A DNA stretch of 64,000 nt from Argopecten irradians (lineage: Eukaryota > Mollusca > Bivalvia > Pectinida > Pectinidae): NCBI RefSeq assembly GCF_041381155.1, contig NC_091135.1, forward strand, positions 63,199,567 through 63,263,566, written 5' to 3'. This document shows, one piece after another, positions 1-54,560 of this stretch. The notes beneath the pieces were generated by a model, which searched no databases, was not told the DNA's origin, and saw nothing but the letters and a program-made list of their open reading frames with translations. The stretch's first letter is position 1. Each line of letters opens with the position of its first letter. The translations under genes and the position numbers were made by a program.

Positions 1-508
1 ACAACTGAAATACCTTTTCCTTCATATGTCCATGATTCCGATTCCTTAATATTCCCATCATTTCGAAAAACTACAATTTTGGTCTTTTCAGTGTTAACAG
101 TTAGCTTCCATTTTTTAGTGTAATCACATAAACAATTAAGCAAACTTTGTAAACCTTCGACAGATTCAGAGAAAAGAACCAAATCATCGGCATATAAAAG
201 TAAAAATAGACTGAGATCACCGAATTCGTATGTACTTGCACCATTTTCAATAAAACTATTTTCAAAATCATTTATAAACATGGAAAAGAGTAGAGGGGAT
301 AAGATTTCCCCTTGCATCAATCCAATATGACTAGTAAAAAAATCAGAACATTTCCCATTCACAAAAACACATGATTTTACAAATGAATACAGACCCTTAA
401 TAACTTTCAACAATTTCCCTCTGATGCCCATTTTGATTAACTTATACCATAAACTTACTCTATCAACAAAGTCGAATGCTTTCCGAAAATCAACAAAACA
501 GCAAATAA
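1..508 (-). mobile_element. LINE (non-LTR retrotransposon) reverse transcriptase fragment
   Basis: Read on the minus strand, the segment is open for about 168 codons without a stop and runs off the left edge of the window. It encodes the palm of a non-LTR reverse transcriptase. Motif A reads FVDFRKAFDFVDR (near 450-495), motif B reads GLMQGEILSPLLFS (near 280-325), and the catalytic motif C reads YADDLVLFSES (near 170-205). These are followed by a KKWKLTVNTEKTK thumb-proximal stretch typical of LINE proteins. The 5' end of the element is missing: it begins abruptly inside the palm, directly at the edge of the 57-bp array, as expected for 5' truncation during target-primed insertion. The clade cannot be assigned safely. 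It lies in what should be intron 3 of the V-ATPase subunit d gene, in the same orientation as that gene. Confidence 0.87.
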
Positions 509-3500
509 CCTAGTAAGGTGTCCACCAACACAGCATTATACAGTACTGGTGGCTAATGTTAATTACCTAGCGGTGTGTCCACCAATACAGCATTATACAT
601 TTCTGGTGGCTAATGTTAATTACCTATGCTAGGGGTGTGTCCACCAACACAGCGTTATACAGTTCTACTGGCTAATGTTAATTACCTAGCGGTGTGTCCA
701 CCAACAAATCATTATACAGTTCTACTGGCTAATGTTAATTACCTAGCGGTGTGTCAACCAACACAGCATTATACAGTTCTGCTGGTTAATGTTAATTAAC
801 TAGCGGTGTGTCCACTTACACAGCATTATACAGTTCTGGTGGCTAATGTAATTACCTAGGGGGGTGTCCACCAACACAGCATTATACAGTTCTGCTGGCT
901 AATATTAATTACCTAGGGGTGTGTCCACCAACACAGCGTTATACAGTTCTACTGGCTAATGTTAATTACCTAGGGGTGTGTCCACCACAACAGCATTATC
1001 CAGTTCTACTGGCTAATATGAATTATGTAGCGGTGTGTCCACAAACACAGCATTATACAGTTCTGGTGGCTAATGTTAATTACCTAGCGGTATGTCCACC
1101 AACACAGCATTATACAGTTTTGGTGGCTAATAATTACCTAGGGGTGTGTCCACCACAACAGCATTATACAGTTCTGCTGGCTTATGTTAATTACCTAGCA
1201 ATGTGTCCACCAATACAGCGTTATACGGTTCTGGTGGCTAATGTTAATTACCTAGCAGTGTGTCCACCAACACAGCATTATACAGTTTTGGTGGCTAATA
1301 ATTACCTAGGGGTGTGTCCACCAACACAGCATTATACAGTTCTGCTGGCTAATGTGAATTACCTAGGGGTGTGTCCACCAACACAGCATTATACAGTTCT
1401 GCTGGCTTATGTTAATTACCTAGGGGTGTGTCCACCAACACAGTGTTATACAGTTCTGGTGGCTTATGTTAATTACCTAGCGGTGTGTCCACCAATACAG
1501 CATTATACAGTTCTGGTGGCTAATGTTAATTACCAAGGGGTGTGTCCACCACTACAGCATTATACAGTTCTGGTGGCTAATGTTAATTACCTAGGGGTGT
1601 GTCCACCAACACAGCATTATACAGTTCTACTGGCTAATGTTAATTACCTAGGGGTGTGTCCACCAACACAGCATTATACAGTTCTGGTGGTTAATGTTAA
1701 TTATCTAGGGGTATGTCCACCAACACAGCATTATACAGTTCTGCTGGCTAATGTTAATTACCTAGGGGTGTGTCCAGCAACACAGCGTTATACAGTTCTG
1801 CTGGCTAATGTTAATTACCTAGGGGGGTGTCCACCAACACAGCATTATACAGTTCTGGTGGTTAATGTTAATTACCCAGGGGTGTGTGCACCAACACAGC
1901 GTTATACAGTTCTGCTGGCTAATGTTAATTACCTAGAGGTGTGTCCACCAATACAGCTTTATACAGTTCTGGTGGCTAATGTTAATTACCTAGAGGTGTG
2001 TGCACCAACACAGCATTATACAGTTCTGGTGGCTAATGTTAATTACCTAGCGGTGTGTCCACCAATACAGCGTTATACGGTTCTGCTGGCTAATGTTAAT
2101 TACCTAGCGGTGTGTCCACCAACACAGCATTATACAGTTCTGCTGGCTAATGTTAATTACCTAGGTGTGTGTCCACCAACACAGCGTTATACAGTTCTGC
2201 TGGCTAATGTTAATTATCTAGAGGTGTGTGCACCAACACAGCATTATACAGTTCTGGTGGCTAATGTTAATTACCTAGCGGTGTGTCCACCAATACAGCG
2301 TTATACGGTTCTGCTGGCTTATGTTAATTACCTAGGGGTGTGTTCACCAATACAGCTTTATACAGTTCTGGTGGCTAATGTTAATTACCTAGCGGTGTGT
2401 CCACCAACACAGCATTATACAGTTCTGGGTGCTAATGTTAATTACCTAGAGGGGTGTCCACCAACACAGCATTATACAGTTCTGCTGGCTAATGTTAATT
2501 ACCTAGGAGTGTGTACACCACTACAGCATTATCCAGTTCTACTGGCTAATGTTAATTACCTAGCGGTGTGTCCACCAACACAGCATTATACAGTTCTGCT
2601 GGCTAATGTTAATTACCTAGCAGTGTGTCCACCACAACAGCATTATCCAGTTCTACTGGCTAATATGAATTACGTAGCGGTGTGTCCACCAACACAGCAT
2701 TATACAGTTCTGGTGGCTAATGTTAATTACCTAGCGGTGTGTCCACCAACACAGCATTATACAGTTTTGGTGGCTAATAATTACCTAGGGGTGTGTCCAT
2801 CAACACAGCATTATACAGTTCTGCTGGCTTATGTTAATTACCTAGCAATGTGTCCACCAACACAGCATTATACAGTTCTGCTGGCTAATGTTAATTACCT
2901 AGGGGTGTGTCCACCAACACAGCGTTATACAGTTCTGCTGGCTTATGTTAATTACCTAGGGGTGTGTCCACCAATACAGCGATATATGGTTCTGGTGGCT
3001 AATGTTAATTACCTAGCGGTGTGTCCACCAACACAGCATTATACAGTTCTGCTGGCTAATAATTACCTAGGGGTGTGTCCACCAACACAGCATTATACAG
3101 TTCTGCTGGCTAATAATTACCTAGGGGTGTGTCCACCAACACAGCTTTATACAGTTCTGGTGGCTAATGTTAATTACCTAGCGGTGTGTCCACTTACACA
3201 GCATTATACAGTTCTGCTGGCTAATGTTAATTACCTAGCAGTGTGTCCACCAACACAGCATTATACAGTTCTGGTGGTTAATGTTAATTACCTAGGGGTG
3301 TGTCCACCAACACAGCATTATACAGTTCTGCTGGCTTATGTTAATTACCTAGGGGTGTGTTCACCAATACAGCTTTATACAGTTCTGGTGGCTAATGTTA
3401 ATTACCTAGCGGTGTGTCCACCAACACAGCATTATACAGTTCTGGGGGCTAATGTTAATTACCTAGGGGGGTGTCCACCAACACAGCATTATACAGTTCT

Positions 3501-6500
3501 GGTGGCTAATGCTAATTACCTAGGGGTGTGTCCACCAACACAGCGTTATACAGTTCTACTGGCTAATGTTAATTACCTAGGAGTGTGTCCACAACTACAG
3601 CATTATCCAGTTCTACTGGCTAATGTTAATTACCTAGCGGTGTGTCCACCAACACAGCATTATACAGTTCTGCTGGCTAATGTTAATTACCTAGGGGTGT
3701 GTCCACCAACACAGCATTATACAGTTCTACTGGCTAATGTTAATTACGTAGCGGTGTGTCCACCAACACAGCATTATACAGTTCTGCTGGCTAATAATTA
3801 CCTAGGGGTGTGTCCACCAACACAGCATTATACAGTTCTGCTGGCTAATGTTAATTACCTAGGGGTGTGTCCACCAACACAGCATTATACAGTTCTGCTG
3901 GCTAATGTTAATTACCTAGGGGTGTGTCCACCAACACAGCATTATACAGTTCTGCTGGCTTATGTTAATTACCTAGGGGTGTGTCCACCAACACAGCATT
4001 ATACAGTTCTGATGGCTAATGTTAATTACCTAGCGGTGTGTCCACCAACACAGCATTATACAGTTCTGGTGGCTAATGTTAATTACCTAGGGGTGTGTCC
4101 ACCAACACAGCATTATACAGTTCTGGTGGCTAATGTTAATTACCTAGCGGTGTGTCCACCCAATACAGCATTATACAGTTCTGGTGGCTAATGTTAATTA
4201 CCTAGGGGTGTGTCCACCAACACAGCATTATACAGTTCTGGTGGCTAATGTTAATTACCTAGCGGTGTGTCCACCAACACAGCATTATACAGTTCTACTG
4301 GCTAATGTTAATTACCTAGGGGTGTGTCCACCAACACAGCATTATACAGTTCTGCTGGCTAATGTTAATTACCTAGCGGTGTGTCCACCAACACAGCATT
4401 ATACAGTTCTGCTGGCTAATGTTAATTACCTAGGGGTGTGTCCACCAACACAGCATTATACAGTTCTGCTGGCTAATGTTAATTACCTAGCGGTGTGTCC
4501 ACCAACACAGCATTATACAGTTCTGCTGGCTAATGTTAATTACCTAGGGGTGTGTCCACCAACACAGCATTATACAGTTCTGCTGGCTAATGTTAATTAC
4601 CTAGGGGTGTGTCCACCAACACAGCATTATACAGTTCTGCTGGCTAATGTTAATTACCTAGCGGTGTGTCCACCAACACAGCATTATACAGTTCTGCTGG
4701 CTAATGTTAATTACCTAGGGGTGTGTCCACCAACACAGCATTATACAGTTCTGCTGGCTAATGTTAATTACCTAGCGGTGTGTCCACCAACACAGCATTA
4801 TACAGTTCTGGTGGCTAATGTTAATTACCTAGGGGTGTGTCCACCACAACACAGCATTATACAGTTCTGGTGGCTAATGTTAATTACCTAGCGGGTGTGT
4901 CCACCAACACAGCATTATACAGTTCTGGTGGCTAATGTTAATTACCTAGCGGTGTGTCCACCAACACAGCATTATACAGTTCTGGTGGCTAATGTTAATT
5001 ACCTAGCGGTGTGTCCACCAACACAGCATTATACAGTTCTGGTGGCTAATGTTAATTACCTAGCGGTGTGTCCACCAACACAGCATTATACAGTTCTGGT
5101 GGCTAATGTTAATTACCTAGCGGTGTGTCCACCAACACAGCATTATACAGTTCTGCTGGCTAATGTTAATTACCTAGCGGTGTGTCCACCAACACAGCAT
5201 TATACAGTTCTGGTGGCTAATGTTAATTACCTAGCGGTGTGTCCACCAACACAGCATTATACAGTTCTGCTGGCTAATGTTAATTACCTAGGGGTGTGTC
5301 CACCAACACAGCGTTATACAGTTCTGCTGGCTAATGTTAATTACCTAGGGGTGTGTCCACCAACACAGCATTATACAGTTCTGGTGGCTAATGTTAATTA
5401 CCTAGCGGTGTGTCCACCAACACAGCATTATACAGTTCTGCTGGCTAATGTTAATTACCTAGCGGTGTGTCCACCAACACAGCATTATACAGTTCTAGTG
5501 GCAGGCTAATATTAATTACCTAGTGGGGTGTGTCCACCAACACAGCATTATACAGTTCTGGTGGCTAATGTTAATTACCTAGCGGTGTGTCCACCAACAC
5601 AGCATTATACAGTTCTGCTGGCTAATGTTAATTACCTAGCGGTGTGTCCACCAACACAGCATTATACAGTTCTGCTGGCTAATGTTAATTACCTAGCGGT
5701 GTGTCCACCAACACAGCGTTATACAGTTCTGGTGGCTAATGTTAATTACCTAGCGGTGTGTCCACCAACACAGCATTATACAGTTCTGCTGGCTAATGTT
5801 AATTACCTAGCGGTGTGTCCACCAACACAGCATTATACAGTTCTGGTGGCTAATGTTAATTACCTAGCGGTGTGTCCACCAACACAGCATTATACAGTTC
5901 TGGTGGCTAATGTTAATTACCTAGGGGTGTGTCCACCAACACAGCATTATACAGTTCTGCTGGCTAATAATTACCTAGGGATCATGTGTCCACCAACACA
6001 GCATTATACAGTTCTGGTGGCTAATGTTAATTACCTAGCGGTGTGTCCACCAACACAGCATTATACAGTTCTGGTGGCTAATGTTAATTACCTAGCGGTG
6101 TGTCCACCAACACAGCATTATACAGTTCTGCTGGCTAATGTTAATTACCTAGCGGTGTGTCCACCAACACAGCATTATACAGTTCTGCTGGCTAATGTTA
6201 ATTACCTAGCGGTGTGTCCACCAACACAGCATTATACAGTTCTGGTGGCTAATGTTAATTACCTAGCGGTGTGTCCACCAACACAGCATTATACAGTTCT
6301 GGTGGCTAATGTTAATTACCTAGCGGTGTGTCCACCAACACAGCATTATACAGTTCTGGTGGCTAATATTAATTACTAGGGTGTGTCCACCAACACAGCA
6401 TTATACAGTTCGTGGCTAATGTTAATTACCTAGCGGTGTGTCCACCAACACAGCATTATACAGTTCTGGTGGCTAATGTTAATTACCTAGGGGTGTGTCC

Positions 6501-9500
6501 ACCAACACAGCGTTATACAGTTCTGGTGGCTAATGTTAATTACCTAGCGGTGTGTCCACCAACACAGCATTATACAGTTCTGGTGGCTAATGTTAATTAC
6601 CTAGCGGTGTGTCCACCAACACAGCATTATACAGTTCTGCTGGCTAATGTTAATTACCTAGCGGTGTGTCCACCAACACAGCATTATACAGTTCTGGTGG
6701 CTAATGTTAATTACCTAGCGGTGTGTCCACCAACACAGCATTATACAGTTCTCTGGCTAATGTTAATTACCTAGCGGTGTGTCCACCAACACAGCATTAT
6801 ACAGTTCTGGTGGCTAATGTTAATTACCTAGCGGTGTGTCCACCAACACAGCATTATACAGTTCTGCTGGCTAATGTTAATTACCTAGCGATGTGTCCAC
6901 CAACACAGCATTATACAGTTCTGGTGGCTAATGTTAATTACCTAGGGGTGTGTCCACCAACACAGCATTATACAGTTCTGCTGGCTAATGTTAATTACCT
7001 AGCGGTGTGTCCACCAACACAGCATTATACAGTTCTGGTGGCTAATGTTAATTACCTAGGGGTGTGTCCACCAACACAGCATTATACAGTTCTGCTGGCT
7101 AATGTTAATTACCTAGGGGTGTGTCCACCAACACAGCATTATACAGTTCTGGTGGCTAATGTTAATTACCTAGCGGTGTGTCCACCAACACAGCATTATA
7201 CAGTTCTGCTGGCTAATGTTAATTACCTAGGGGTGTGTCCACCAACACAGCGTTATACAGTTCTGGTGGCTAATGTTAATTACCTAGCGGTGTGTCCACC
7301 AACACAGCATTATACAGTTCTGGTGGCTAATGTTAATTACCTAGGGGTGTGTCCACCAACACAGCGTTATACAGTTCTGCTGGCTAATGTTAATTACCTA
7401 GCGGTGTGTCCACCAACACAGCATTATACAGTTCTGGTGGCTAATGTTAATTACCTATGCTAGGGGTGTGTCCACCAACACAGCATTATACAGTTCTGGT
7501 GGCTAATGTTAATTACCTAGCGGTGTGTCCACCAACACAGCATTATACAGTTCTGCTGGCTAATGTTAATTACCTAGGGGTGTGTCCACCAACACAGCGT
7601 TATACAGTTCTGGTGGCTAATGTTAATTACCTAGGGGTGTGTCCACCAACACAGCATTATACAGTTCTGGTGGCTAATGTTAATTACCTAGCGGTGTGTC
7701 CACCAACACAGCATTATACAGTTCTGGTGGCTAATGTTAATTACCTAGCGGTGTGTCCACCAACACAGCATTATACAGTTCTGGTGGCTAATGTTAATTA
7801 CCTAGGGGTGTGTCCACCAACACAGCATTATACAGTTCTGGTGGCTAATGTTAATTACCTAGCGGTGTGTCCACCAACACAGCATTATACAGTTCTGCTG
7901 GCTAATGTTAATTACCTAGGGGTGTGTCCACCAACACAGCATTATACAGTTCTGGTGGCTAATGTTAATTACCTAGCGGTGTGTCCACCAACACAGCATT
8001 ATACAGTTCTGGTGGCTAATGTTAATTACCTAGGGGTGTGTCCACCAACACAGCATTATACAGTTCTGGTGGCTAATGTTAATTACCTAGCGGTGTGTCC
8101 ACCAACACAGCATTATACAGTTCTGGTGGCTAATGTTAATTACCTAGCGGTGTGTCCACCAACACAGCATTATACAGTTCTGGTGGCTAATGTTAATTAC
8201 CTAGGGGTGTGTCCACCAACACAGCATTATACAGTTCTGCTGGCTAATGTTAATTACCTAGGGTGTGTCCACCAACACAGCATTATACAGTTCTGGTGGC
8301 TAATGTTAATTACCTAGCGGTGTGTCCACCAAAACACAGCATTATACAGTTCTGGTGGCTAATGTTAATTACCTAGGGGTGTGTCCACCAACACAGCATT
8401 ATACAGTTCTGGTGGCTAATGTTAATTACCTAGGGATGTGTCCACCAACACAGCATTATACAGTTCTGATGGCTAATGTTAATTACCTAGCGGTGTGTCC
8501 ACAAACACAGCATTATACAGTTCTGGTGGCTAATGTTAATTACCTAGGGGTGTGTCCACCAACACAGCATTATACAGTTCTGCTGGCTAATGTTAATTAC
8601 CTAGCGGTGTGTCCACCAACACAGCGTTATACAGTTCTGGTGGCTAATGTTAATTACCTAGCGGTGTGTCCACCAACACAGCATTATACAGTTCTGGTGG
8701 CTAATGTTAATTACCTAGGGGTGTGTCCACCAACACAGCATTATACAGTTCTGCTGGCTAATGTTAATTACCTAGCGGTGTGTCCACCAACACAGCATTA
8801 TACAGTTCTGGTGGCTAATGTTAATTACCTAGCGGTGTGTCCACCAACACAGCATTATACAGTTCTGGTGGCTAATGTTAATTACCTAGCGGTGTGTCCA
8901 CCAACACAGCATTATACAGTTCTGCTGGCTAATGTTAATTACCTAGCGGTGTGTCCACCAACACAGCATTATACAGTTCTGGTGGCTAATGTTAATTACC
9001 TAGCGGTGTGTCCACCAACACAGCATTATACAGTTCTGGTGGCTAATGTTAATTACCTAGCGGTGTGTCCACCAACACAGCATTATACAGTTCTGCTGGC
9101 TAATGTTAATTACCTAGGGGTGTGTCCACCAACACAGCATTATACAGTTCTGGTGGCTAATGTTAATTACCTAGCGGTGTGTCCACCAACACAGCATTAT
9201 ACAGTTCTGGTGGCTAATGTTAATTACCTAGCGGTGTGTCCACCAACACAGCATTATACAGTTCTGGTGGCTAATGTTAATTACCTAGGGGTGTGTCCAC
9301 CAACACAGCATTATACAGTTCTGGTGGCTAATGTTAATTACCTAGGGGTGTGTCCACCAACACAGCATTATACAGTTCTGGTGGCTAATGTTAATTACCT
9401 AGCGGTGTGTCCACCAACACAGCATTATACAGTTCTGCTGGCTAATAATTACCTAGCGGTGTGTCCACCAACACAGCATTATACAGTTCTGCTGGCTAAT

Positions 9501-12500
9501 GTTAATTACCTAGCGGTGTGTCCACCAACACAGCATTATACAGTTCTGGTGGCTAATGTTAATTACCTAGCGGTGTGTCCACCAACACAGCATTATACAG
9601 TTCTGGTGGCTAATGTTAATTACCTAGCGGTGTGTCCACCAACACAGCATTATACAGTTCTGCTGGCTAATGTTAATTACCTAGCGGTGTGTCCACCAAT
9701 ACAGCATTATACAGTTCTGGTGGCTAATGTTAATTACCTAGCGGTGTGTCCACCAACACAGCATTATACAGTTCTGGTGGCTAATGTTAATTACCTAGGG
9801 GTGTGTCCACCAACACAGCATTATACAGTTCTGGTGGCTAATGTTAATTACCTAGGGGTGTGTCCACCAACACAGCATTATACAGTTCTGGTGGCTAATG
9901 TTAATTACCTAGCGGTGTGTCCACCAACACAGCATTATACAGTTCTGGTGGCTAATGTTAATTACCTAGCGGTGTGTCCACCAACACAGCATTATACAGT
10001 TCTGGTGGCTAATGTTAATTACCTAGCGGTGTGTCCACCAACACAGCATTATACAGTTCTGGTGGCTAATGTTAATTACCTAGGGGTGTGTCCACCAACA
10101 CAGCATTATACAGTTCTGCTGGCTAATGTTAATTACCTAGGGTGTGTCCACCAACACAGCATTATACAGTTCTGGTGGCTAATGTTAATTACCTAGGGGT
10201 GTGTCCACCAACACAGCATTATACAGTTCTGGTGGCTAATGTTAATTACCTAGCGGTGTGTCCACCAACACAGCATTATACAGTTCTGCTGGCTAATGTT
10301 AATTACCTAGCGGTGTGTCCACCAACACAGCATTATACAGTTCTGGTGGCTAATGTTAATTACCTAGCGGTGTGTCCACCAACACAGCATTATACAGCAT
10401 TATACAGTTCTGGTGGCTAATGTTAATTACCTAGGGGTGTGTCCACCAACACAGCATTATACAGTTCTGGTGGCTAATGTTAATAACCTAGCGGTGTGTC
10501 CACCAACACAGCATTATACAGTTCTGGTGGCTAATGTTAATTACCTAGGGGTGTGTCCACCAACACAGCATTATACAGTTCTGGTGGCTAATGTTAATTA
10601 CCTAGCGGTGTGTCCACCAACACAGCATTATACAGTTCTGGTGGCTAATGTTAATTACCTAGCGGTGTGTCCACCAACACAGCATTATACAGTTCTGGTG
10701 GCTAATGTTAATTACCTAGCGGTGTGTCCACCAACACAGCATTATACAGTTCTGGTGGCTAATGTTAATTACCTAGCGGTGTGTCCACCAACACAGCATT
10801 ATACAGTTCTGGTGGCTAATGTTAATTACCTAGCGGTGTGTCCACCAACACAGCATTATACAGTTCTGGTGGCTAATGTTAATTACCTAGCGGTGTGTCC
10901 ACCAACACAGCATTATACAGTTCTGGTGGCTAATGTTAATTACCTAGGGGTGTGTCCACCAACACAGCGTTATACAGTTCTGGTGGCTAATGTTAATTAC
11001 CTAGCGGTGTGTCCACCAACACAGCATTATACAGTTCTGGTGGCTAATGTTAATTACCTAGGGGTGTGTCCACCAACACAGCATTATACAGTTCTGGTGG
11101 CTAATGTTAATTACCTAGCGGTGTGTCCACCAACACAGCATTATACAGTTCTGGTGGCTAATGTTAATTACCTAGCGGTGTGTCCACCAACACAGCATTA
11201 TACAGTTCTGCTGGCTAATGTTAATTACCTAGCGGTGTGTCCACCAACACAGCATTATACAGTTCTGGTGGCTAATGTTAATTACCTAGCTAGGGGTGTG
11301 TCCACCAACACAGCATTATACAGTTCTGGTGGCTAATGTTAATTACCTAGCGGTGTGTCCACCAACACAGCATTATACAGTTCTGGTGGCAGGCTAATGT
11401 TAATTACCTAGCGGTGTGTCCACCAACACAGCATTATACAGTTCTGGTGGCTAATGTTAATTACCTAGCGGTGTGTCCACCAACACAGCATTATACAGTT
11501 CTGCTGGCTAATGTTAATTACCTAGCGGTGTGTCCACCAACACAGCATTATACAGTTCTGGTGGCTAATGTTAATTACCTAGCGGTGTGTCCACCAACAC
11601 AGCATTATACAGTTCTGGTGGCTAATGTTAATTACCTAGCGGTGTGTCCACCAACACAGCATTATACAGTTCTGGTGGCTAATGTTAATTACCTATGCTA
11701 GGGGTGTGTCCACCAACACAGCATTATACAGTTCTGGTGGCTAATGTTAATTACCTAGCGGTGTGTCCACCAACACAGCATTATACAGTTCTGGTGGCTA
11801 ATGTTAATTACCTAGCGGTGTGTCCACCAACACAGCATTATACAGTTCTGGTGGCTAATGTTAATTACCTAGCGGTGTGTCCACCAACACAGCATTATAC
11901 AGTTCTGGTGGCTAATGTTAATTACCTAGCGGTGTGTCCACCAACACAGCATTATACAGTTCTGGTGGCTAATGTTAATTACCTAGGGGTGTGTCCACCA
12001 ACACAGCATTATACAGTTCTGGTGGCTAATGTTAATTACCTAGGGGTGTGTCCACCAACACAGCATTATACAGTTCTGCTGGCTAATGTTAATTACCTAG
12101 CGGTGTGTCCACCAACACAGCGTTATACAGTTCTAGTGGCTAATGTTAATTACCTAGCGGTGTGTCCACCAACACAGCATTATACAGTTCTACTGGCTAA
12201 TGTTAATTACCTTAGCGGTGTGTCCACCAACACAGCATTATACAGTTCTGGTGGCTAATGTTAATTACCTAGCGGTGTGTCCACCAACACAGCATTATAC
12301 AGTTCTGGTGGCTAATGTTAATTACCTAGCGGTGTGTCCACCAACACAGCATTATACAGTTCTGGTGGCTAATGTTAATTACCTAGCGGTGTGTCCACCA
12401 ACACAGCATTATACAGTTCTGCTGGATAATGTTAATTACCTAGGGGTGTGTCCACCAACACAGCGTTATACAGTTCTGGTGGCTAATGTTAATTACCTAG

Positions 12501-13170
12501 CGATGTGTCCACCAACACAGCATTATACAGTTCTGGTGGCTAATGTTAATTACCTAGCGGTGTGTCCACCAACACAGCATTATACAGTTCTGGTGGCAGG
12601 CTAATGTTAATTACCTAGCGGTGTGTCCACCAACACAGCATTATACAGTTCTGGTGGCTAATGTTAATTACCTAGCGGTGTGTCCACCAACACACCATTA
12701 TACAGTTCTGCTGGCTAATGTTAATTACCTAGGGGTATGTCCACCAACACAGCATTATACAGTCCTGGTGGCTAATGTTAATTACCTAGCGGTGTGTCCA
12801 CCAACACAGCGTTATACAGTTCTGCTGGCTAATGTTAATTACCTAGCGGTGTGTCCACCAACACAGCATTATACAGTTCTGCTGGCTAATGTTAATTACC
12901 TAATGGTGTGTCCACCAACACAGCATTATACAGTCCTGGTGGCTAATGTTAATTACCTAGCGGTGTGTCCACCAATACAGCATTATACAGTTCTGCTGGC
13001 TAATGTTAATTACCCAGGGGTGTGTCCACCAACACAGCATTATACAGTTCTGCTGGCTAATGTTAATTACCTAGCGGTGTGTCCACCAACACAGCGTTAT
13101 ACAATTCTGCTGGCTAATGTTAATTACCTAGCGGTGTGTCCACCAACACAGCATTGTACAGTTCTGCTGG
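509..13170 (-). repeat. 57-bp satellite array derived from V-ATPase exon 3/intron 3 junction (about 220 copies)
   Basis: This is an uninterrupted head-to-tail array. The minus-strand unit is 43 nt from CCAGCAGAACTG to CACACCGCTAG, followed by GTAATTAACATTAG (14 nt). The 43 nt match the end of V-ATPase exon 3, which adjoins the array at its right edge, and the 14 nt are the start of intron 3 including the donor GT. Common variants are CCAGCAG versus CCACCAG, CCGCTAG versus CCCCTAG (synonymous in the gene frame), and a 6-bp deletion inside the intronic part. The middle (about 4.2-12.6 kb) is very uniform. The left 3.7 kb is the most diverged and contains segmental duplications. The unit is 19 codons long and one plus-strand frame has no stops, so long open frames (repeating [19 protein letters not shown]) run across it. 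I treat these as artefacts because the unit's origin is the opposite strand of a known gene. Confidence 0.97.
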
Positions 13171-14848
13171 AGTAGCTGCTATGTGTATTGCTTCCATCTG
13201 CTCAAAACTACCAAGAGGATGACATTTGGGAATGAGCTCATTGATTGGACGCTGGTGAAGCGTGCCCGTGATCAACAGGATGATATTGTCAATCATGTAA
13301 CTGTACCTGTAACAAATAATGTACTGTGTGTTTAATCACATATATTCTTATTCTAAAATAGTGTGAAAGTGAGAGGGATTTTGTATAGCCCAAATCTATG
13401 TATATACATGTATACTTACAACCAGTCTCACCATGAAGAGACTTATACATATAGCTTTCATTTTGTTCCATAAATTAATTATTCTAATATTATGTATATT
13501 TAAAGAAACAATACAATAATGTTGAATTAATGACAAAACAGTAAACATCTATTGGCTATAGGTCCATTATATACTGTTATATTTGTTAAACATCAATTGC
13601 AAATACAATATAATGTATATATTACAAATCAGCAAACATTAACATATTAAAGATAAAGACTGAAAATAAATATTGACATCATATGTATGGTCTTTGTTTC
13701 AAGATTTGAATACTAGTCTACAAAATAAGAATTACAATCAAACTAATTTTGTTATTGATTGTATTTTAGATTTAATGCCATTCTAATTATAAACCCATCA
13801 CCACTTATACCAATATTTACGTTATGTAATCTAGGAAGGTGGCTAGTGGCTCCAAACAGTGGTTACGGAGATGCTGGAACTCTATCACAAGTTTTTCCTT
13901 GAGTTTGTCGTCAATGACGGAAACAGTTAGAGGGCTTGGTTCATTGGCAAGGAAGTTCCCATAGTCAGTACTTTGTAAATGTAGTTTTAAATCTGAAAAA
14001 AATACTCAAATCAATCATTTTTAGTAATACAGGACTCACCTAGACGGTCCTGATTTTCCTGTGAGATTTGCCAACTCTATATTTCTTTGTACAGAGGATT
14101 CCGCTTATTTGAATAAGTCATTTTCCAGAAGAAAATATGTATTGGGATTCATCAAAATTTGACAATTAACCTTCTGAACTCGCCTTAAAAATCCTACATA
14201 AATTGTTGATTTTTTACACTTTTATCTAGCAATTTGCTTGCATTGATTGATTGTATAACTACAACAAATAATCAAATTTGGAAAACATAAAATGCAAAAT
14301 CAATCACATTTAATGACACAACACTTCAACACACACTAAGTACAAAAAGTGTAACAGATCTAGAGCTCTCTATATATGTTTCTGATAGAAGCTAGTAAGC
14401 TTAAACAGACCGAAAATCATGTAAATAAACATTCAGTACTGTAGTAAACTCATAATTCGGAATAGTGTTAGAACCCTTAGGGCAAAGATTCCAATATATT
14501 TTAAATATAGTTGATTTTAGTGCAGTATAAATTATGAATTATTCAACAAACTTTAATAAATCACATAATTGTCATATTGTCATGTTTAAAAATCTAAACA
14601 AGGTATTTTTACTCTAACCGATACCATTTAGTTATGACATAATGATACCCGTGCATGCCACGGTGTCGAAAGTCATAGCCGAGTCAGGTCATATGTTGTC
14701 GATCTGTCTTACCGTCCAGACTTTCACATTGGACAAGATTAAGATAATCCGCTTGTTTCAAGATCCCTCCCTTGAATCCCCGAACTAGACCTTCAAGATA
14801 GCCATGGTCTATATTAAAGTACATCTCTGGCATCGTGTAAGCCGACAT
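13128..14848 (-). CDS. ATP6V0D1: V-type proton ATPase V0 subunit d, exons 1-3 (5' part of gene)
   Basis: This subunit forms the cytosolic cap of the membrane V0 sector and couples the V1 stalk to the rotating c-ring in endomembrane and plasma-membrane proton pumps. Exon 1 is 14848-14713 (starts [20 protein letters not shown]), exon 2 is 13992-13821 ([20 protein letters not shown]), and exon 3 is 13306-13128 ([16 protein letters not shown] through [12 protein letters not shown] to NAVLVDTPL). Donors GTAAGA, GTAAAT and GTAATT and acceptors TTTTTTCAG and TTGTTACAG give compatible phases 1, 2 and 1 and a continuous 161-codon frame. It aligns closely, from memory, with the first half of animal subunit d (about 350 aa). 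The expected next exon (AAFFQDC...) is not in the window and should lie left of position 1. Exon 3 ends inside the first unit of the satellite. The start codon is the first ATG and fits the family N-terminus. No defect is seen in the three exons. Confidence 0.95.
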
Positions 14849-16669: not shown

Positions 16670-24933
<8,264 letters not shown>

Positions 24934-25744: not shown

Positions 25745-28700
25745 TATCACAGTACACTGTAGCTTCACTGTACCCTTAATTATCAATGGACAGAACTGAC
25801 ATCCTGTCATGTTTAGGTACTATCACAGTACACTGTAGCTTTACTGTACCCTTAATTATCAATGGACAGAACTGACATCCTGTCATGTTTTGGTACTATC
25901 ACAGTACACTGTAGCTTCACTGTACCCTTAATTATCAATGGACAGAACTGAAATCCTGTCATGTTTAGGTACTATCACAGTACACTGTAGCTTCACTGTA
26001 CCCTTAATTATCAATGGACAGAACTGAAATCCTGTCATGTTTAGGTACTATCACAGTACACTGTAGCTTCACTGTACCCTTAATTATCAATGGACAGAAC
26101 TGAAATCCTGTCATGTTTAGGTACTATCACAGTACACTGTAGCTTTACTGTACCCTTAATTATCAATGGACAGAACTGAAATCCTGTCATGTTTAGGTAC
26201 TATCACAGTACACTGTAGCTTCACTGTACCCTTAATTATCAATGGACAGAACTGAAATCCTGTCATGTTTAGGTACTATCACAGTACACTGTAGCTTTAC
26301 TGTACCCTTAATTATCAATGGACAGAACTGAAATCCTGTCATGTTTAGGTACTATCACAGTACACTGTAGCTTTACTGTACCCTTAATTATCAATGGACA
26401 GAACTGAAATCCTGTCGTGTTTAGGTACTATCACAGTACACTGTAGCTTCACTGTACCCTTAATTATCAATGGACAGAGCTGACATCCTGTCATGTTTAG
26501 GTACTATCACAGTACACTGTAGCTTTACTGTACCCTTAATTATCAATGGACAGAACTGAAATCCTGTCGTGTTTAGGTACTATCACAGTACACTGTAGCT
26601 TTACTGTACCCTTAATTATCAATGGACAGAGCTGAAATCCTGTCATGTTTAGGTACTATCACAGTACACTGTAGCTTTACTGTACCCTTAATTATCAATG
26701 GACAGAGCTGAAATCCTGTCGTGTTTAGGTACTATCACAGTACACTGTAGCTTCACTGTACCCTTAATTATCAATGGACAGAACTGAAATCCTGTCATGT
26801 TATTTTACTATCACAGTACACTGTAGCTTCACTGTACCCTTAATTATCAATGGACAGAACTGAAATCCTGTCATGTTTAGGTACTATCACAGTACACTGT
26901 AGCTTCACTACCCTTAATTATCAACGGACAGAACTGAAATCCTGTCGTGTTTAGGTTCTATCACAGTACACTGTAGCTTTACTGTACCCTTAATTATCAA
27001 TGGACAGAACTGAAATCCTGTCATGTTATTTTACTATCACAGTACACTGTAGCTTCACTGTACCCTTAATTATCAATGGACAGAACTGAAATCCTGTCAT
27101 GTTTAGGTACTATCACAGTACACTGTAGCTTTACTGTACCCTTACACCCGGTCCACCCCAACTGCGAATGATAAATATTATGAAGTTCCTTACCGTCAAT
27201 CGATTGATTTGTGTAGCGATAAACGCTAACACTCTACCGACACAACGTGGCTATTTTTAGACTCGAGTACTGTCGCCAAATCCACAGGTAAATCGCGGGG
27301 CGCTCTGGCTACACCAGCTATACCAAACACAATCGTAAATGTTACAAATACCGTAAAATCTTGTGTTACTTACACACCAGTGTACTTTGCACATGTATTT
27401 TTTCTTATGGCTTTAAATACTGAAAAAAATCTACTATCGGTATATTTACTATCACAGTACACTGTAGCTTCACTGTACCCTTAATTATCAAGGACAGAAC
27501 TGAAATCCTGTCATGTTTAGGTACTATCACAGTACACTGTAGCTTTACTGTACCCTTAATTATCAATGGACAGAAACTGAAATCCTGTCGTTGTTAGGTA
27601 CTATCACAGTACACTGTAGCTTCACTGTACCCTTAATTATCAATGGACAGAACTGAAATCCTGTCATGTTTAGGTACTATCACAGTACACTGTAGCTTCA
27701 CTGTACCCTTAATTATCAATGGACAGAACTGAAATCCTGTCATGTTTAGGTACTATCACAGTACACTGTAGCTTCACTGTACCCTTAATTATCAATGGAC
27801 AGAACTGAAATCCTGTCATGTTTTGTTACTATCACAGTACACTGTAGCTTCACTGTACCCTTAATTATCAATGGACAGAACTGAAATCCTGTCATGTTTT
27901 GGTACTATCACAGTACACTGTAGCTTCACTGTACCCTTAATTATCAATGGACAGAACTGAAATCCTGTCATGTTTAGGTACTATCACAGTACACTGTAGC
28001 TTTACTGTACCCTTAATTATCAATGGACAGAACTGAAATCCTGTCATGTTTAGGTACTATCACAGTACACTGTAGCTTACTGTACCCTTAATTATCAATG
28101 GACAGAACTGAAATCCTGTCATGTTTAGGTACTATCACAGTACACTGTAGCTTTACTGTACCCTTAATTATCAATGGACAGAACTGAAATCCTGTCATGT
28201 TTAGGTACTATCACAGTACACTGTAGCTTTACTGTACCCTTAATTATCAATGGACAGAACTGAAATCCTGTCATGTTTTGGTACTATCACAGTACACTGT
28301 AGCTTTACTGTACCCTTAATTATCAATGGACAGAACTGAAATCCTGTCATGTTTTGGTACTATCACAGTACACTGTAGCTTTACTGTACCCTTAATTATC
28401 AATGGACAGAACTGAAATCCTGTCATGTTTTAGGTACTATCACAGTACACTGTAGCTTTACTGTACCCTTAATTATCAATGGACAGAACTGAAATCCTGT
28501 CATGTTTAGGTACTATCACAGTACACTGTAGCTTTACTGTACCCTTAATTATCAATGGACAGAACTGAAATCCTGTCATGTTTAGGTACTATCACAGTAC
28601 ACTGTAGCTTTACTGTACCCTTAATTATCAATGGACAGAACTGAAATCCTGTCATGTTTAGGTACTATCACAGTACACTGTAGCTTTACTGTACCCTTAA

Positions 28701-30063
28701 TTATCAATGGACAGAACTGAAATCCTGTCATGTTTTTACTATCACAGTACACTGTAGCTTACTGCCCTTAATTATCAATGGACAGAACTGAAATCCTGTC
28801 ATGTTTTGTTCTATCACAGTACACTGTAGCTTCACTGTACCCTTAATTATCAATGGACAGAACTGAAATCCTGTCATGTTTTGTTACTATCACAGTACAC
28901 TGTAGCTTCACTGTACCCTTAATTATCAATGGACAGAGCTGAAATCCTGTCATATTATTTTACTATCACAGTACACTGTAGCTTTACTGTACCCTTAATT
29001 ATGAATGGACAGAACTGAAATCCTGTCGTGTTTAGGTACTATCACAGTACACTGTAGCTTTACTGTACCCTTAATTATCAATGGACAGAACTGAAATCCT
29101 GTCATGTTTAGGTACTATCACAGTACACTGTAGCTTCACTGTACCCTTAATTATCAATGGACAGAACTGAAATCCTGTCATGTTTTGGTACTATCACAGT
29201 ACACTGTAGCTTCACTGTACCCTTAATTATGAATGGACAGAACTGAAATCCTGTCATGTTTTGGTACTATCACAGTACACTGTAGCTTCACTGTACCCTT
29301 AATTATCAATGGACAGAACTGAAATCCTGTCATGTTTAGGTACTATCACAGTACACTGTAGCTTCACTGTACCCTTAATTATCAATGGACAGAACTGAAA
29401 TCCTGTCATGTTTTGGTACTATCACAGTACACTGTAGCTTCACTGTACCCTTAATTATCAATGGACAGAACTGAAATCCTGTCATGTTTTGGTACTATCA
29501 CAGTACACTGTAGCTTCACTGTACCCTTAATTATAATGGACAGAACTGAAATCCTGTCATGTTTTGGTACTATCACAGTACACTGTAGCTTCACTGTACC
29601 CTTAATTATAATGGACAGAACTGATCACAGTACACTGTAGCTTACTGTACCCTTAATTAAATGGACAGAGCTGAAATCGTGTTTAGGTACTATCACAGTA
29701 CACTGTAGCTTTACTGTACCCTTAATTATCAATGGACAGAGCTGACATCCTGTCATGTTTTGGTACTATCACAGTACACTGTAGCTTTACTGTACCCTTA
29801 ACTATCAATGGACAGAGCTGAAATCCTGTCATGTTTTGGTACTATCACAGTACACTGTAGCTTCACTGTACCCTTAATTATGAATGGACAGAACTGAAAT
29901 CCTGTCATGTTTTGTTGCTATCACAGTACACTGTAGCTTCACTACCCTTAATTATGAATGGACAGAACTGAAATCCTGTCGTGTTTAGGTACTATCACAG
30001 AACACTGTAGCTTCACTGTACCCTTAATTATGAATGGACAGAACTGAAATCCTGTCGTGTTTT
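25745..30063. repeat. 76-bp satellite array, about 53 copies
   Basis: The head-to-tail unit starts TCACAGTACACTGTAGCTTC, continues ACTGTACCCTTAATTATCAA and ends GTCATGTTTAGGTACTA. Variation is mainly CTTC/CTTT, GACATCC/GAAATCC and TTTAGG/TTTTGG/TATTTT at the 3' part. The first part of each unit is an imperfect inverted repeat (GTACA...TGTAC), able to form a small stem. The array is split by a 305-bp unrelated block at 27143-27447 and becomes ragged (short deletions) at its right end near 29.5-30 kb. It starts about 0.8 kb after the AHCY stop codon. The unit does not match AHCY coding sequence. Confidence 0.97.
27143..27447. other. 305-bp unrelated insertion inside the 76-bp array
   Basis: The array breaks off after GTACCCTTA, and 305 bp of single-copy-looking sequence (starting CACCCGGTCCACCCC, ending CTATCGGTATATT) intervenes before the units resume with ACTATCACAG. 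I see no terminal inverted repeats, target duplication or coding frame. It may be a mobile element fragment, or original unique sequence left between two arrays. Confidence 0.55.
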
Positions 30064-30229
30064 GGCCTTGGTGTTGTCCTCTTTAGTGATCATGAAATTC
30101 ATTTCTATTGTATCCCACATTTCACTGATGGTCATCTTCAGTTCGTAACAAAACATTGATTGAAGAAGATAATGGACAGCGATGTGGTCTTTCATGTCTG
30201 TCCACATTTTTAGCCCATGCACAATCATC

Positions 30230-31683: not shown

Positions 31684-33320
31684 AGGGTCATCTAACCGAA
31701 GGTCAGGATGACCTATTGTCATCGTGTTTTGTCCGTCGTCGTCCGCCGTGCGTCGTGCGTAAGACTATTTATACAAAAGCCTACTCCTCCTTCATCCTTT
31801 GATGGATTTCATCCATATTTGGTGTGTAACATCATTCGGGAAGGACAATTATATTTTATATAAATGAGCCTGGTCCGACCCCTAGGGGCTGAGGGGTGGG
31901 GCCCCAAATTGGGAAATTTTCTTAATTTTAGCTTTAAAATTCTACTCCTCCTTCATCCTTGGATGAATTTCATCCATATTTGGTGTGAAACATCATTGGG
32001 GAAGGACAATCATATTTTATATAAATGAGCCTGGTCTGACCCATAGGGGCTGAGGGTGGGGCCCCAAATGGGGAAATTTTCTTAAATTTAGCTTTAAAAT
32101 CCTACTCCTCCTTTATCCTATGATGAATTTATCCATATCTGATGTGAAACATCATTGGGGAAGGACAATCATATTTTATATAAATGAGTCTGGTCCGACC
32201 CCTAGGGGCTGAGGGGTGGGCCCCAAAAGGGCAAATTTTCTTAATTTTAGCTGTCCCACTTCCTGTTTTCAGGTTTTGGTCTCCGATCTCAATGAAAATT
32301 TGTCTATAGGGGTTTTAAATGATGCCGAACAACATTCAAACATTTTCGTAAAGATTTTGGTATTCCAAGATGGCCGCTGGCCCACTTCCTGTTTTAAGGT
32401 TTCAGTCTCTGATCTCGATGAAAATTGGTCTATAGGGGTTATAATTAATGCCGAACAACATACAAACATTTTCGTAAATATTTTGGTATTTCAAGATGGC
32501 CGCTGGCCCACTTCCTGTGTTGGGATTCAATCTCCGATATCTCAATGAAAATTGGTCTATATGGGTTTTAATTGATTCAGAAGGGGGAACTTTAGGTGAA
32601 GACAATCATATTTTATAAAGGACCGAGCTAAAACCCATGGGGATAGTACGGCGGAGGTCCAAAATGGGAGCTTTGCTGAAATTTGGCTTTAAAATCTGAC
32701 TCCTTATATTAATCATGGAATGGGTTACAACCATATATGGATGAAGGGCTACCAAGTTTGTTCAACAAATGACATTTACCTATTTCAGAAACTTACACAT
32801 TCAACTAAGGAGTTCCTTGTATTGTTTATATTAATTGTTAACCACAATTTTATACTGTGAATTTGTTGTTTTGTGCCATGAGTCAGATGACCGTTAAAGG
32901 CCCATTACCTTTCCGGAGCAAAATATAAAGGTTTCTTAAAAAAAATAATAACATCAGAAAATGCATACCGATGACCTAAAATAAGGTTACGACACCAAAC
33001 ATGTGCAAGATTTCCTGCGTAATATATGAAAACAGCGGAGAGTCAATTCGTTGTTTTGCCGTCTGGTGCAATGATAGTCAACTACTGCGTGGTATTTAGG
33101 AAGACGGTGGGAAACATAATACGACCCGCGTTATGAAAATAAACATTTTATTTATTTTAATCAAATCGTTCAGAAGGTGATTATAAAGTAGTATTAACGG
33201 TAAGCAAATAAATTTTAAGACTCTACAAAATTATCGATCTTGTTTTACATTCCCATTTTAAAAATTAAAAGCCGTTTCGGAAAGGTAGTGGGCCTTTAAG
33301 GCCCATGGGCCTCTTGTTTT
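31684..33320 (+). mobile_element. Long copy of the GGTCATCTGAC-ended element with internal tandem repeats
   Basis: It starts AGGGTCATCTAACC and ends GTCAGATGACCGTTAA ... GGCCCATGGGCCTCTTG, the same ends as the short copy in AHCY intron 3. The interior holds three tandem copies of a unit of about 140 bp (CTACTCCTCCTTCATCC ... AGGGGCTGAGGGGTGGG, 31780-32250). These are followed by about 2.5 copies of a second unit of about 124 bp (CCCACTTCCTGTTTT ... GTAAAGATTTTGG, 32256-32530). No protein of its own. A MITE is inserted near the right end at 32898-33295. Likely a non-autonomous DNA element; superfamily unknown. Confidence 0.58.
32898..33295. mobile_element. 398-bp TTAA-flanked MITE, copy 2, nested in another repeat
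   Basis: The ends and interior are those of the copy at 30955-31351. It is bordered by TTAA at 32894-32897 and 33296-33299. It splits the host repeat's word CCGTTAAGGCCCATGGGC, which is intact in the short host copy at 20284-20556. This gives a natural filled and empty pair and shows that the duplication is exactly TTAA. Non-coding. Confidence 0.82.
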
Positions 33321-41800: not shown

Positions 41801-42382
41801 TAACCTGTCAGAGGGCGATCAGGTTTTCTTCATTCACCACTCACCAAAACACAGAGCCACGCTCCGTGTTCAATCACCGTGCACCCAAATGTATATGTAC
41901 TACAGCCATGCTTTTACCATTCAACCTTATCAAAATGGACGCTACTGAAGCGTGCCTTTAAAAAGCACAATTAGTCAATATTTTTGGCACATATTAGAAA
42001 TAAAAAAAATATTTTAATGTAATTATAGACACACTCGCTGACTTAAATCGCTCATTTGTAATGTACTGTTTTTTATACTAGTACCGTAAAACCCGTAAAA
42101 TGCATATCGGATTTCGGCCAAACCAAACCTATAGGGGTATTCAATATATATATTTGATTGACAGGTTTAATATTACATTCTGTACACATGATTATTATAT
42201 TTCAAATGATATCGGGTGTGCGCAAAGAACGATTTAGCCCTCGTTACTGTTGCTATCATGATAGCGGACGTAGATTTTTAATAGTTGATTGTTAGTGCGG
42301 GTCGTAAGACAAAGCAAGTGTGGCCAGGGAATATTGGTGTTATGTGGATACTTTCCTAAGATTTCGTGAGAGTTGCGAGGCT
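41801..42382 (+). other. 5' flank of the first B-box gene
   Basis: Unique AT-rich sequence. An in-frame stop at 42305-42307 precedes the coding frame and no other ATG lies between it and 42383, which supports 42383 as the start. No clear TATA box was identified. Confidence 0.4.
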
Positions 42383-44250
42383 ATGGAGTGCCCAAAACAC
42401 CGAGACTCCAATGTGGTAATGATATGTACCACTTGTAACAATGTGTTCGTGTGTTTGGAATGTGCAACGAACGAACACAGGGGACATACTTTTGGCAAGT
42501 TTGACGAGGTAGGCAAATCTATTCGAAAAAAGTGTTCTAACTTATCTAATGTTATACGAGATCTACGTTCGGATTTGCAAACTATCATCTACGCAAAGAA
42601 GGACCAAATTCGGTACACGAAGACTGCCAACATGAAGATTAAGCAGCAGAGAGAAATCATGCACAAAGCTTTGGATGATATAGCCGAGTACCTTATATCT
42701 ATATGTGAAAAGCAAAAGCTCAGAAATCTAGCCTTGCTCAACGAACATGAATCTGCTTTGACCGAACAAATAGGTCAAGTTGAAGCCGAAGACGAAAAAC
42801 TCAAACGAGTTCTGACGTCTAAAAACGATATCGATCTTATACGTGGTTCTCAGAATATGAAATCTTCGTACACCAGACGGAAATCTCGCCACATCCCCAA
42901 ACCACTGGAGTTCCATACGGGAATGATGGACGCTAGTGCCCTTCAGCAGATGCTTGGCTCTCTGATCAGTGATCCAGTGGACACTTTGATCGTACCATGG
43001 CACGACATCCCCGCGTCTTTGAGGCCTCATGAAAATGATGATATGTCTACTGTGCACTCAAAGTTCCCGCCAATAGAAAGCAACGGAGTGAATCGCGAAT
43101 CCAACAAAACTCCCAGTTCACAAATATCTACTATGTCGATGAACAAGAAGAAAGCAATTGCTGTAGTTTCCACGTTCAAGCATTCAGCCAGTATGGGGAT
43201 CAGTGCCGTGTGCACGGCTAATCCTGGACATGTCTGGGTAAAGTGTGCAGGCCAGAATGAGATCAGACTAGCGGATAAAGCTGGCTACATCAAACGCATC
43301 CTCCGTTTTGGAACTTTGATTCGCGGACTAGCCGTTACGGCTGATATGAGACTTCTCGTCTGTTGCTTTGACGCTCGTTGTATCAAACGCCTTTCTCCAC
43401 CAAACTACAAAGCGTCTACGTCGTTTAGTACAGGCAACCTGAAACCTAACTATGTATGTTCAGCGACAAAAGGAGACTTCCTGGTCACACTTGTGGACAG
43501 AATGTATCACGATGTTTCTCATGACAGTCAACGATTACTAGCTCGTTACACTGAATCTGGCAAGGAGGTGGCCCGGGCACAGTTTGACAAGTTCGGCGTG
43601 AACCTGTTCGTCTTGCCAGGTCAGGTGAGACTAACGTCTAACGGAGACGTCGTGGCTGTTGTTAATGAGACGAACGAGGAATCTGCACATTTAGTTCTTT
43701 TGGATGGCAGCTTTAAGTTGAAATTGCGCTTCTTCGGTGATGGCCGAGCCATCCCTGGTGAAAAGAGGCATAGTTTTCCAAAGAGACAAAAGAAATTTTA
43801 CATCAATGATGTTGACTTTGATTCCTTTGACAACATCATCTTTGCCGAGTCCCACACGCGAACTGTCCAGATACTGGACCCTTCCTGCCAACTACTTCAG
43901 GTCATCCTTCAGGAGATCCACATCCCCTGGTCTGTAGGTCAGTAACATAGCAATCTCATACCTAATAAAGCAACACTCAATAAGTATACATGAATTATAC
44001 TGCTACTTTTTCGAATAAAGTTTAGTAACATGATTAGTGATTGATTAAAGGACGCAAAAGCTAGGTATCGTGTGAAGCAAGGCAATGTTATACGAATTGC
44101 TTCTAAAAGGATAAGATAAGATTGATTGTAACGAATAGTAGAAGATACATTAATAACCCTACTTTTAACTAACCTATGTTTTCAGCGGTGAGCGAGTTCG
44201 GTGATATCTGGGTCGGTCTGGACGACGGAAGAGTGAAAGTGTTAAAGTAG
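42383..44250 (+). CDS. B-box zinc finger / coiled-coil protein with C-terminal propeller-like domain (TRIM-like, no RING)
   Basis: Exon 1 is 42383-43937 and exon 2 is 44186-44250 (donor GTCAGT, acceptor TTTTCAG). They join to 539 residues ending GDIWVGLDDGRVKVLK. The start is the first ATG after an in-frame stop and gives MECPKHRDSN. Residues 3-35 form a type-2 B-box with zinc ligands C3, H6, C15, C18, C24, C27, H32 and H35. Residues about 45-165 are charged and helical, a likely coiled coil. A serine-rich linker follows, and from about 255 on there are repeated beta-strand-type blocks (IRLADKAGYIKRILRFG, HLVLLDGSFKLKLRFFGDGR, DVDFDSFDNIIFAESHTRTV), as in NHL-like propellers. There is no RING, so E3 ligase activity is not indicated. 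The closest relative in view is the minus-strand gene at 49029-50672. Such genes are multiplied in bivalves; the exact role is unknown. Confidence 0.87.
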
Positions 44251-44928: not shown

Positions 44929-45714
44929 GACATTCTGCTGAAGACACATGCCAGCCCGCCCGTCGGCCATGAGACATTCTGCTGAAGACACATGCCAGCC
45001 CGCCCGTCGGCAAAGAGACATTCTGCTGAAGACACATGCCAGCCCGCCCGTCGGCAAAGAGACATTCTGCTGAAAACACATGCCAGCCCGCCCGTTGGCC
45101 ATGAGACATTATGCTGAAGATACATGCCAGCCCGCCCGTCTGCCATGAGACATTCTGCTGAAGACACATGCCAGCCCGCCCGTCGGCAAAGAGACATTCT
45201 GCTGAAGACACATGCCAGCCCGCCCGTCGGCAATGAGACATTCTGCTGAAGACACATGCCAGCCCGCCCGTTTGCCATGAGACATTATGCTGAAGATACA
45301 TGCCAGCCCGCCCGTCTGCCATGAGACATTCTGCTGAAGACACATGCCAGCCCGCCCGTCGGCAAAGAGACATTCTGCTGAAGACACATGCCAGCCCGCC
45401 CGTCGGCAAAGAGACATTCTGCTGAAAACACATGCCAGCCCGCCCGTTGGCCATGAGACATTATGCTGAAGATACATGCCAGCCCGCCCGTCGGCCACGA
45501 GACCTTCTGCTGAAGACACATGCCAGCCCGCCCGTCGGCAAAGAGACATTCTGCTGAAGACACATGCCAGCCCGCCCGTCGGCAAAGAGACATTCTGCTG
45601 AAAACACATGCCAGCCCGCCCGTTTGCCATGAGACATTATGCTGAAGATACATGCCAGCCCGCCCGTCGGCCATGAGACCTTCTGCTGAAGACACATGCC
45701 AGCCCGCCCGTTGG
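44929..45714. repeat. 44-bp satellite array, about 18 copies
   Basis: The unit starts GACATTCTGCTGAAGACACA and continues TGCCAGCCCGCCCGTCGGCA then AAGA. Variants at two places (ATTATGCTGAAGATACATG, and TTGGCCATGA/CTGCCATGA/CGGCAAAGA) alternate in a repeating order, which indicates higher-order units of several copies. It is GC-rich against an AT-rich background. Minus-strand frames (GRAGMCLQQNVS...) are stop-free but cycle through three frames, an artefact of the repeat. It lies between the two convergent B-box genes. Confidence 0.94.
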
Positions 45715-52971: not shown

Positions 52972-54560
52972 TAACGTCCCATCAATGACCAGGGTCATGT
53001 AAGGACGGCCTCCCATGTATAACGTCCTATCAATATCCAGTGTCATGTAAGGACGGCCTCCCATGTATAACGTCCTATCAATATCCAGTGTCATGTAAGG
53101 AGGGCCTCCAATGTATAACGTCCTATCAATATCCAGTGTCATGTAAGGAGGGCCTCCCATGTATAACGTCCTATCAATATCCAGTGTCATGTAAGGACGG
53201 CCTCCCATGTATAACGTCCTATCAATATCCAGTGACATGTAAGGACGGCCTCCAATGTATAACGTCCTATCAATATCCAGTGTCATGTAAGGACGGCCTC
53301 CAATGTATAACGTCCTATCAATATCCAGTGTCATGTAAGGACGGCCTCCCATGTATAACGTCCTATTAATATCCAGTGTCATGTAAGGACGGCCTCCCAT
53401 GTATAACGTCCTATCAATATCCAGTGTCATGTAAGGACGGCCTCCAATGTATAACGTCCTATCAATATCCAGTGTCATGTAAGGACGGCCTCCAATGTAT
53501 AACGTCCTATCAATATCCAGTGTCATGTAAGGACGGCCTCCCATGTATAACGTCCTATCAATATCCAGTGTCATGTAAGGACGGCCTCCAATGTATAACG
53601 TCCTATCAATATCCAGTGTCATGTAAGGACGGCCTCCAATGTATAACGTCCTATTAATATCCAGTGTCATGTAAGGACGGCCTCCCATGTATAACGTCCT
53701 ATTCAATATCCAGTGTCATGTAAGGAGGCCTCCATGTATAACGTCCTATCAATATCCAGTGTCATGTAAGGACGGCCTCCCATGTATAACGTCCTATCAA
53801 TATCCAGTGTCATGTAAGGACGGCCTCCCATGTATAACGTCCTATCAATATCCAGTGTCATGTAAGGACGGCCTCCCATGTATACGGCGTCCTATCAATA
53901 TCCAGTGTCATGTAAGGACGGCCTCCCATGTATAACGTCCTATCAATATCCAGTGTCATGTAAGGACGGCCTCCCATGTATAACGTCCTATCAATATCCA
54001 GTGTCATGTAAGGACGGCCTCCCATGTATAACGTCCTATCAATATCCAGTGTCATGTAAGGACGGCCTCCCATGTATAACGTCCTATCAATATCCAGTGT
54101 CATGTAAGGACGGCCTCCCATGTATAACGTCCTATCAATATCCAGTGTCATGTAAGGACGGCCTCCCATGTATAACGTCCTATCAATATCCAGTGTCATG
54201 TAAGGACGGCCTCCCATGTATAACGTCCTATCAATATCCAGTGTCATGTAAGGACGGCCTCCCATGTATAACGTCCTATCAATATCCAGTGTCATGTAAG
54301 GACGGCCTCCCATGTATAACGTCCTATCAATATCCAGTGTCATGTAAGGACGGCCTCCCATGTATAACGTCCTATCAATATCCAGTGTCATGTAAGGACG
54401 GCCTCCCATGTATAACGTCCTATCAATATCCAGTGTCATGTAAGGACGGCCTCCCATGTATAACGTCCTATCAATATCCAGTGTCATGTAAGGACGGCCT
54501 TCCATGTATAACGTCCTATCAATATCCAGTGTCATGTAAGGACGGCCTCCCATGTATAAC
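52972..54560. repeat. 48-bp satellite array, left block, about 33 copies
   Basis: The unit starts TGTCATGTAAGGACGGCCTC and continues CCATGTATAACGTCCTATCA then ATATCCAG. The right half of the block (53.8-54.5 kb) is almost invariant, while the left half alternates CCCATG and CCAATG variants. Both strands are stop-free in one frame (16-residue repeat TLYMGGRPYMTLDIDR on the minus strand), an artefact of a 48-bp period. The same family continues on the other side of the BEL element. Confidence 0.96.

Follow-up and report, generated by a model that had tools for sequence, protein, structure and literature searches.

A minisatellite in a V-ATPase subunit d intron of the bivalve Argopecten irradians, derived from the edge of exon 3 and its splice donor

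How does the edge of a conserved coding exon, together with its splice donor, come to be present some 220 times in the intron that follows it? The question is raised by a 64,000-nucleotide stretch of Argopecten irradians DNA (assembly GCF_041381155.1, contig NC_091135.1, positions 63,199,567 to 63,263,566 of the forward strand; hereafter the window), in which a V-ATPase subunit d gene adjoins a long array of 57-bp units (Table 1). Exons 1-3 of this gene (14833-13128, minus strand) read open and encode 157 codons plus one nucleotide (472 nt) of V-ATPase subunit d. The 157-aa peptide, which ends ...PAELYNAILVDTPL, matches vATP-synt_AC39 (Pfam; PF01992) with E=4.2e-42 and gives a gap-free alignment with V-ATPase d1 (PDB 6vq6, residues 5-160). 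In view of this profile match and alignment, the 43 nt at 13170-13128 that recur in the array belong to a conserved exon. Exon 3 stands intact beside the array, and for exons 1 and 2 the rest of the window yields nothing beyond chance matches of 12 bp. A tblastn search of the window for exon 4, with an approximate human d1 C-terminal query, returned nothing at E<=1.

Table 1. Features of the V-ATPase subunit d locus and the adjoining array (positions are those of the window).
Feature	Position	Strand	Remarks
V-ATPase subunit d exon 1, coding part from ATG	14713-14833	-	donor ACG/GTAAGA; Pfam match of the 157-aa peptide
V-ATPase subunit d exon 2	13821-13992	-	donor AAC/GTAAAT
V-ATPase subunit d exon 3	13128-13306	-	donor TAG/GTAATT; the repeat derives from the last 43 nt (13170-13128)
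Intron 3, first 14 nt	13114-13127	-	GTAATTAACATTAG; non-coding quarter of the 57-bp unit
Head-to-tail 57-bp array	518-13113	-	220 complete units and one partial
Distal, more diverged part of the array	518-4301	-	units 155-220, in three blocks with 3.8, 5.5 and 5.9 differences per unit pair
Reverse-transcriptase fragment (RVT_1, E=6.3e-23)	3-509	-	open frame; runs off the window on the left

The parentage of the unit can be read directly: on the minus strand, it consists of the last 43 nt of exon 3 and the first 14 nt of intron 3, which include the donor. The array consensus is identical to exon 3 at 41 of these 43 positions, whereas the best of 500 shuffled versions of the consensus reached 26 matches at any placement along the three-exon coding sequence, on either strand. 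Tandem Repeats Finder reports an array at 518-13170 with a period of 57, 221.6 copies and 94% matches, and a cyclic alignment running from 13170 to 504 resolves 222 units, starting with the exon/intron junction and ending in an incomplete unit; the left edge is accordingly uncertain, at about 504-518. Exactly 57 bp is the length of 196 of the 221 complete units (exon copy included), and the order is head-to-tail throughout a total span of about 12.65 kb. In the assembly the array is contiguous with its parent exon, both this contiguity and the copy number resting on that one assembly. A sequence-only reading of this DNA had proposed precisely this anatomy, namely a unit made of the end of exon 3 and the start of its intron, a right edge formed by exon 3 itself, and an approximately 220-fold amplification within the intron; all three elements are borne out, down to the 14 intronic positions (13127-13114).

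The same reading called the array a satellite. The tandem array is real but the label is generous. Within the window, no further copies of the unit were found outside the array, all copies lie downstream of 13128, and the term minisatellite is understood to mean a single-locus, head-to-tail series of units of some 10-100 bp; since one local array is what the data show, intronic minisatellite is the better name. The array is richer in GC (43.6%) than its flanks (30.8% and 31.4%), with 39.3% in the window as a whole and 53.5% in the 43-nt exon seed. Searches of viral contigs with an exact 38-base unit pattern containing one ambiguous base gave no matches, and scans of the window for Rfam families at gathering scores and for tRNAs were likewise empty. 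Unusual DNA folding was considered as a cause of instability and rejected, the stability of two units lying within the range of 200 shuffled sequences (z -0.69), 47 of which are equally or more stable. The predicted RNA fold of three consensus units (-50.9) is not compelling in comparison with 200 tripled shuffled units (-41.1, sd 7.7).

The variation among units bears on the history of the array. There are 77 distinct sequences among the 221 units when insertions are ignored. Column 15 is T in all 220 array units and C in exon 3, which is the pattern to be expected of an array with one common seed and no recent conversion from the exon. The exon side is homogenised and the distal end diverged: seven exon-side blocks show 0.4-2.3 differences per unit pair, with 2.3 in the first 22 units, the minimum of 0.44 in units 23-44 and the maximum of 5.9 at the distal end, in units 199-220. 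Identical neighbors occur as a run of eight (units 21-28). When the five commonest variable sites are taken in pairs, each of the 10 pairs shows all four combinations, a four-gamete result that recurrent mutation can also yield. Taken together, this pattern fits an interior that was amplified and homogenised by exchange between units, with older edges, and recurrent mutation could have contributed. Mean differences are flat (2.2-2.5) at lags of 1-60 units, so that no higher-order repeats are apparent within the array, and no coding selection on the units was detected: of the changes that are possible, 15 of 35 synonymous ones and 28 of 91 nonsynonymous ones occur (Fisher p=0.21). As a separate observation, 132 of the 221 units have at column 4 a C that makes an inverted repeat, CCACCA/TGGTGG, complete within the unit; this C is probably derived, given the G in the exon, and reaches its highest frequency where homogenisation is strongest (20 of 22 in units 23-44).

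In all likelihood, then, a local tandem duplication at the boundary of exon 3 and intron 3 gave rise to the array, exchange or slippage multiplied its copies, and the array probably has no function. In the scenario that we infer, a 57-bp segment across the junction was initially duplicated in tandem just inside the intron, and the array would then have grown to more than 220 copies via unequal exchange, gene conversion or replication slippage between copies. The array is probably tolerated: the own donor of exon 3 is the one nearest to its acceptor and, for this reason, the array would be removed along with the intron.

One challenge to the absence of function comes from the donors. The exact donor 9-mer of exon 3, TAGGTAATT, is kept in 209 of the 220 array units, GT in 216 and AGGT in 210, and an in-frame TAA or TAG is present in 219. 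With this many intact donor 9-mers and in-frame stops, the intron contains some 200 potential decoy donors, and with near-identical exon sequence ahead of each of them, the copies differ mainly in position. Use of a decoy donor would add GGT AAT TAA after Leu157, with a stop at the third codon. It is conceivable, albeit unlikely, that the approximately 210 intact authentic donors in near-native exon context constitute a U1 decoy or poison array, the copy number of which would set V-ATPase d output. The elaborated form of this idea, which we consider quite unlikely, holds that the array is used: by binding U1, the tandem donors would compete with the true donor or act as a buffer for it, some transcripts would gain a stop and be destroyed, and the copy number would tune the output of the gene. 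Such use is compatible with an origin by duplication and contradicts only the absence of function. It draws on the retention of the 9-mer within a nearly identical 43-nt upstream context, on a human minisatellite with reportedly used donors discussed below, and on the quality of the donor itself. The splice donor consensus is CAGGTAAGT, to which the exon 3 donor matches at 7 of 9 positions and the donors of exons 1 and 2 at 6 of 9 each. However, homogenisation by itself keeps donors alike, and the low variation of the donor depends on how it is measured: by three measures, 2, 3 and 4 of the 57 overlapping nine-column segments of the unit (the donor 9-mer included) are as low or lower, whereas by the number of distinct variants the 9-mer is unremarkable, with 13 of 57 as low or lower. 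Low donor variation could thus hint at constraint, but given its dependence on the measure, we do not read it as demonstrated selection.

A different challenge concerns the duplication itself. The intron could have been born by tandem duplication of an AGGT-bearing exon segment, as in the Rogers model, and subsequently overgrown. Tandem duplication of AGGT segments is a described route of intron gain (PMC3443670, PMC4974935), and the unit consensus contains CTAG/GT, the AGGT of which is retained in most units. The 14 nt beyond the donor are, however, non-coding and carry an in-frame stop, and hence the intron seems to have existed before the duplication. In addition, the candidate acceptors within the unit are pyrimidine-poor, with 10 of 20 nt before either AG, where exon 2 has 14 and exon 3 has 12. 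We therefore regard an origin of the intron by this route as very unlikely.

At its left edge, the array meets a reverse-transcriptase fragment, in which the RVT_1 match begins at position 70 of the 205-position profile; the fragment thus lacks its 5' part at the array edge. Judging from the way such elements insert, a 5'-truncated LINE-type insertion would have this appearance, and the array may continue past it, to the left of the window. That a dispersed satellite or mobile element landed next to the exon, or that the join is an assembly error, is highly improbable despite this adjoining retroelement fragment, as the exon sequence lies inside the unit, in register and contiguous with the exon, the many distinct unit sequences and their graded divergence are unlike a looped assembly, and there is no copy of the unit elsewhere in the window.

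With respect to precedents, the sequence-only reading knew of no described example of such an array, a statement that does not hold in the face of the literature. Hron et al. (2026; PMC12954441) report the same anatomy in 115 chicken genes under the name of exon stuttering, whereby an intron carries repeated copies of a lateral part of the neighbouring coding exon, donor or acceptor included, and a minisatellite that provides multiple splice donors was described in human IFI6 (6-16) by Turri et al. (1995; cited in PMC4526556). With these two cases and intron gain by AGGT duplication on record, the kind of structure found here is already known. The correspondence with exon stuttering is extensive (PMC12954441). 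Both involve tandem copies of a coding-exon edge including a splice site, are confined to the adjacent intron, within the window in the present case, and leave the exon intact; the exon part measures 20-187 bp (median 36) in chicken and 43 here, over 90% of the chicken cases, like the present one, have an exon-border source, and the span of about 12.65 kb falls within the chicken range of 112-23,555 bp. The two also differ. Chicken cases have 1-44 copies (median 4), compared with 220 complete copies beyond the source here, and their repeats are described as less organised, in contrast to the very regular array described here. The authors link exon stuttering to GC-rich sequence and mention it in birds and some gerbil genes (data not shown); 190 of 236 introns are on GC-rich dot chromosomes and 36 on macrochromosomes, whereas the present array has 43.6% GC and flanks of 31%. 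A GC-rich setting, which is a correlate and not the definition of exon stuttering, is thus absent here, although the exon seed itself reaches 53.5%. Finally, length variation between individuals is reported in chicken, whereas the present array is known from a single assembly.

The other parallels are partial. The IFI6 minisatellite shares with the array repeat units that carry splice donors; in IFI6, two downstream units are reported to be used, with three mRNA species (PMC4526556), whereas the array donors in Argopecten are potential ones. Intron gain by AGGT duplication (Hellsten 2011, cited in PMC4974935) similarly involves tandem duplication of an AGGT segment within or beside an exon, but creates a new intron, whereas the Argopecten intron seems to have been present already and to have grown; a multiplied 24-bp exonic segment is also described in fission yeasts (PMC4974935). 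The CapA satellite, for which an origin from a NOS1AP intron has been suggested (Valeri et al. 2018, cited in PMC8210747), is likewise a tandem repeat with a genic seed, but that seed is intronic and was amplified in one clade, in contrast to the one local array with an exon-edge seed found here. Earthworm metallothionein introns also contain minisatellite-sized repeats in an invertebrate gene, and duplications of the fourth exon are absent from transcripts in one clone (PMC12783039); unlike the present units, these repeats are not stated, in the available text, to be exon edges with a splice site. We found no exon-edge array from a mollusc or other invertebrate in the open-access literature searched, and the available parts of PMC5615363 and PMC12628747 describe no exon-derived satellites.

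Exon-seeded arrays were also sought among the other repeats of the window, with 12 of the 15 repeat loci compared and the window masked for those 12; the three loci omitted are short, of about two copies each (at 17, 15451 and 18236). Ten of the 12 have no match at E<=0.01 in the masked window, and the remaining two, with 171-bp and 159-bp repeats, match only nearby sequence (22448-22553 and 32601-32704, respectively) outside the stretches treated as coding. Conversely, none of the six stretches treated as coding, namely three presumed to be adenosylhomocysteinase (17776-18027 being the one scanned with Pfam), two B-box frames and a Pao-type element, recurs elsewhere in the window at E<=0.001, apart from the Pao-type element's own 39-bp repeat. 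This 13-codon repeat (60422-60596) lies inside the element's open frame at 58625-60640 on the minus strand. The Pao-type retroelement (55281-60640) is itself flanked by two arrays of a 48-bp family in the same orientation (52972-54560 and 62180-63999), the second of which reaches the end of the window. The 171-bp repeat (22623-23195; 3.4 copies), to which the sequence at 22448-22553 is related, probably sits in an intron of the adenosylhomocysteinase gene, 17776-18027 being a Pfam AdoHcyase match and the nearer exons having been judged by eye. A 76-bp array (25745-27144 and 27447-30065) is split by about 300 bp unmatched by the unit, and a 44-bp array (44929-45711) shows a 176-bp higher-order period of four units (97% match). 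The long open frames at 42308-43945 (plus strand) and 49029-50690 (minus strand) have N-terminal matches to the B-box zinc finger (Pfam), the latter just under the cut-off (23.4 vs 24.1 bits).

What is new in Argopecten is the far greater number of copies, their great regularity and a setting that is not GC-rich. The combination of high copy number and regularity with flanks of 31% GC argues that a GC-rich setting is unnecessary, although the exon seed itself has 53.5%. Moreover, some 210 copies of one donor in near-identical context, differing mainly in position, provide a natural test of the rules of proximity and exon definition, and raise the question of how the right splice site is chosen among so many copies. 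Should the array act as a decoy, the amplification of exon edges would be general in animals, extending beyond the GC-rich chromosomes of birds.
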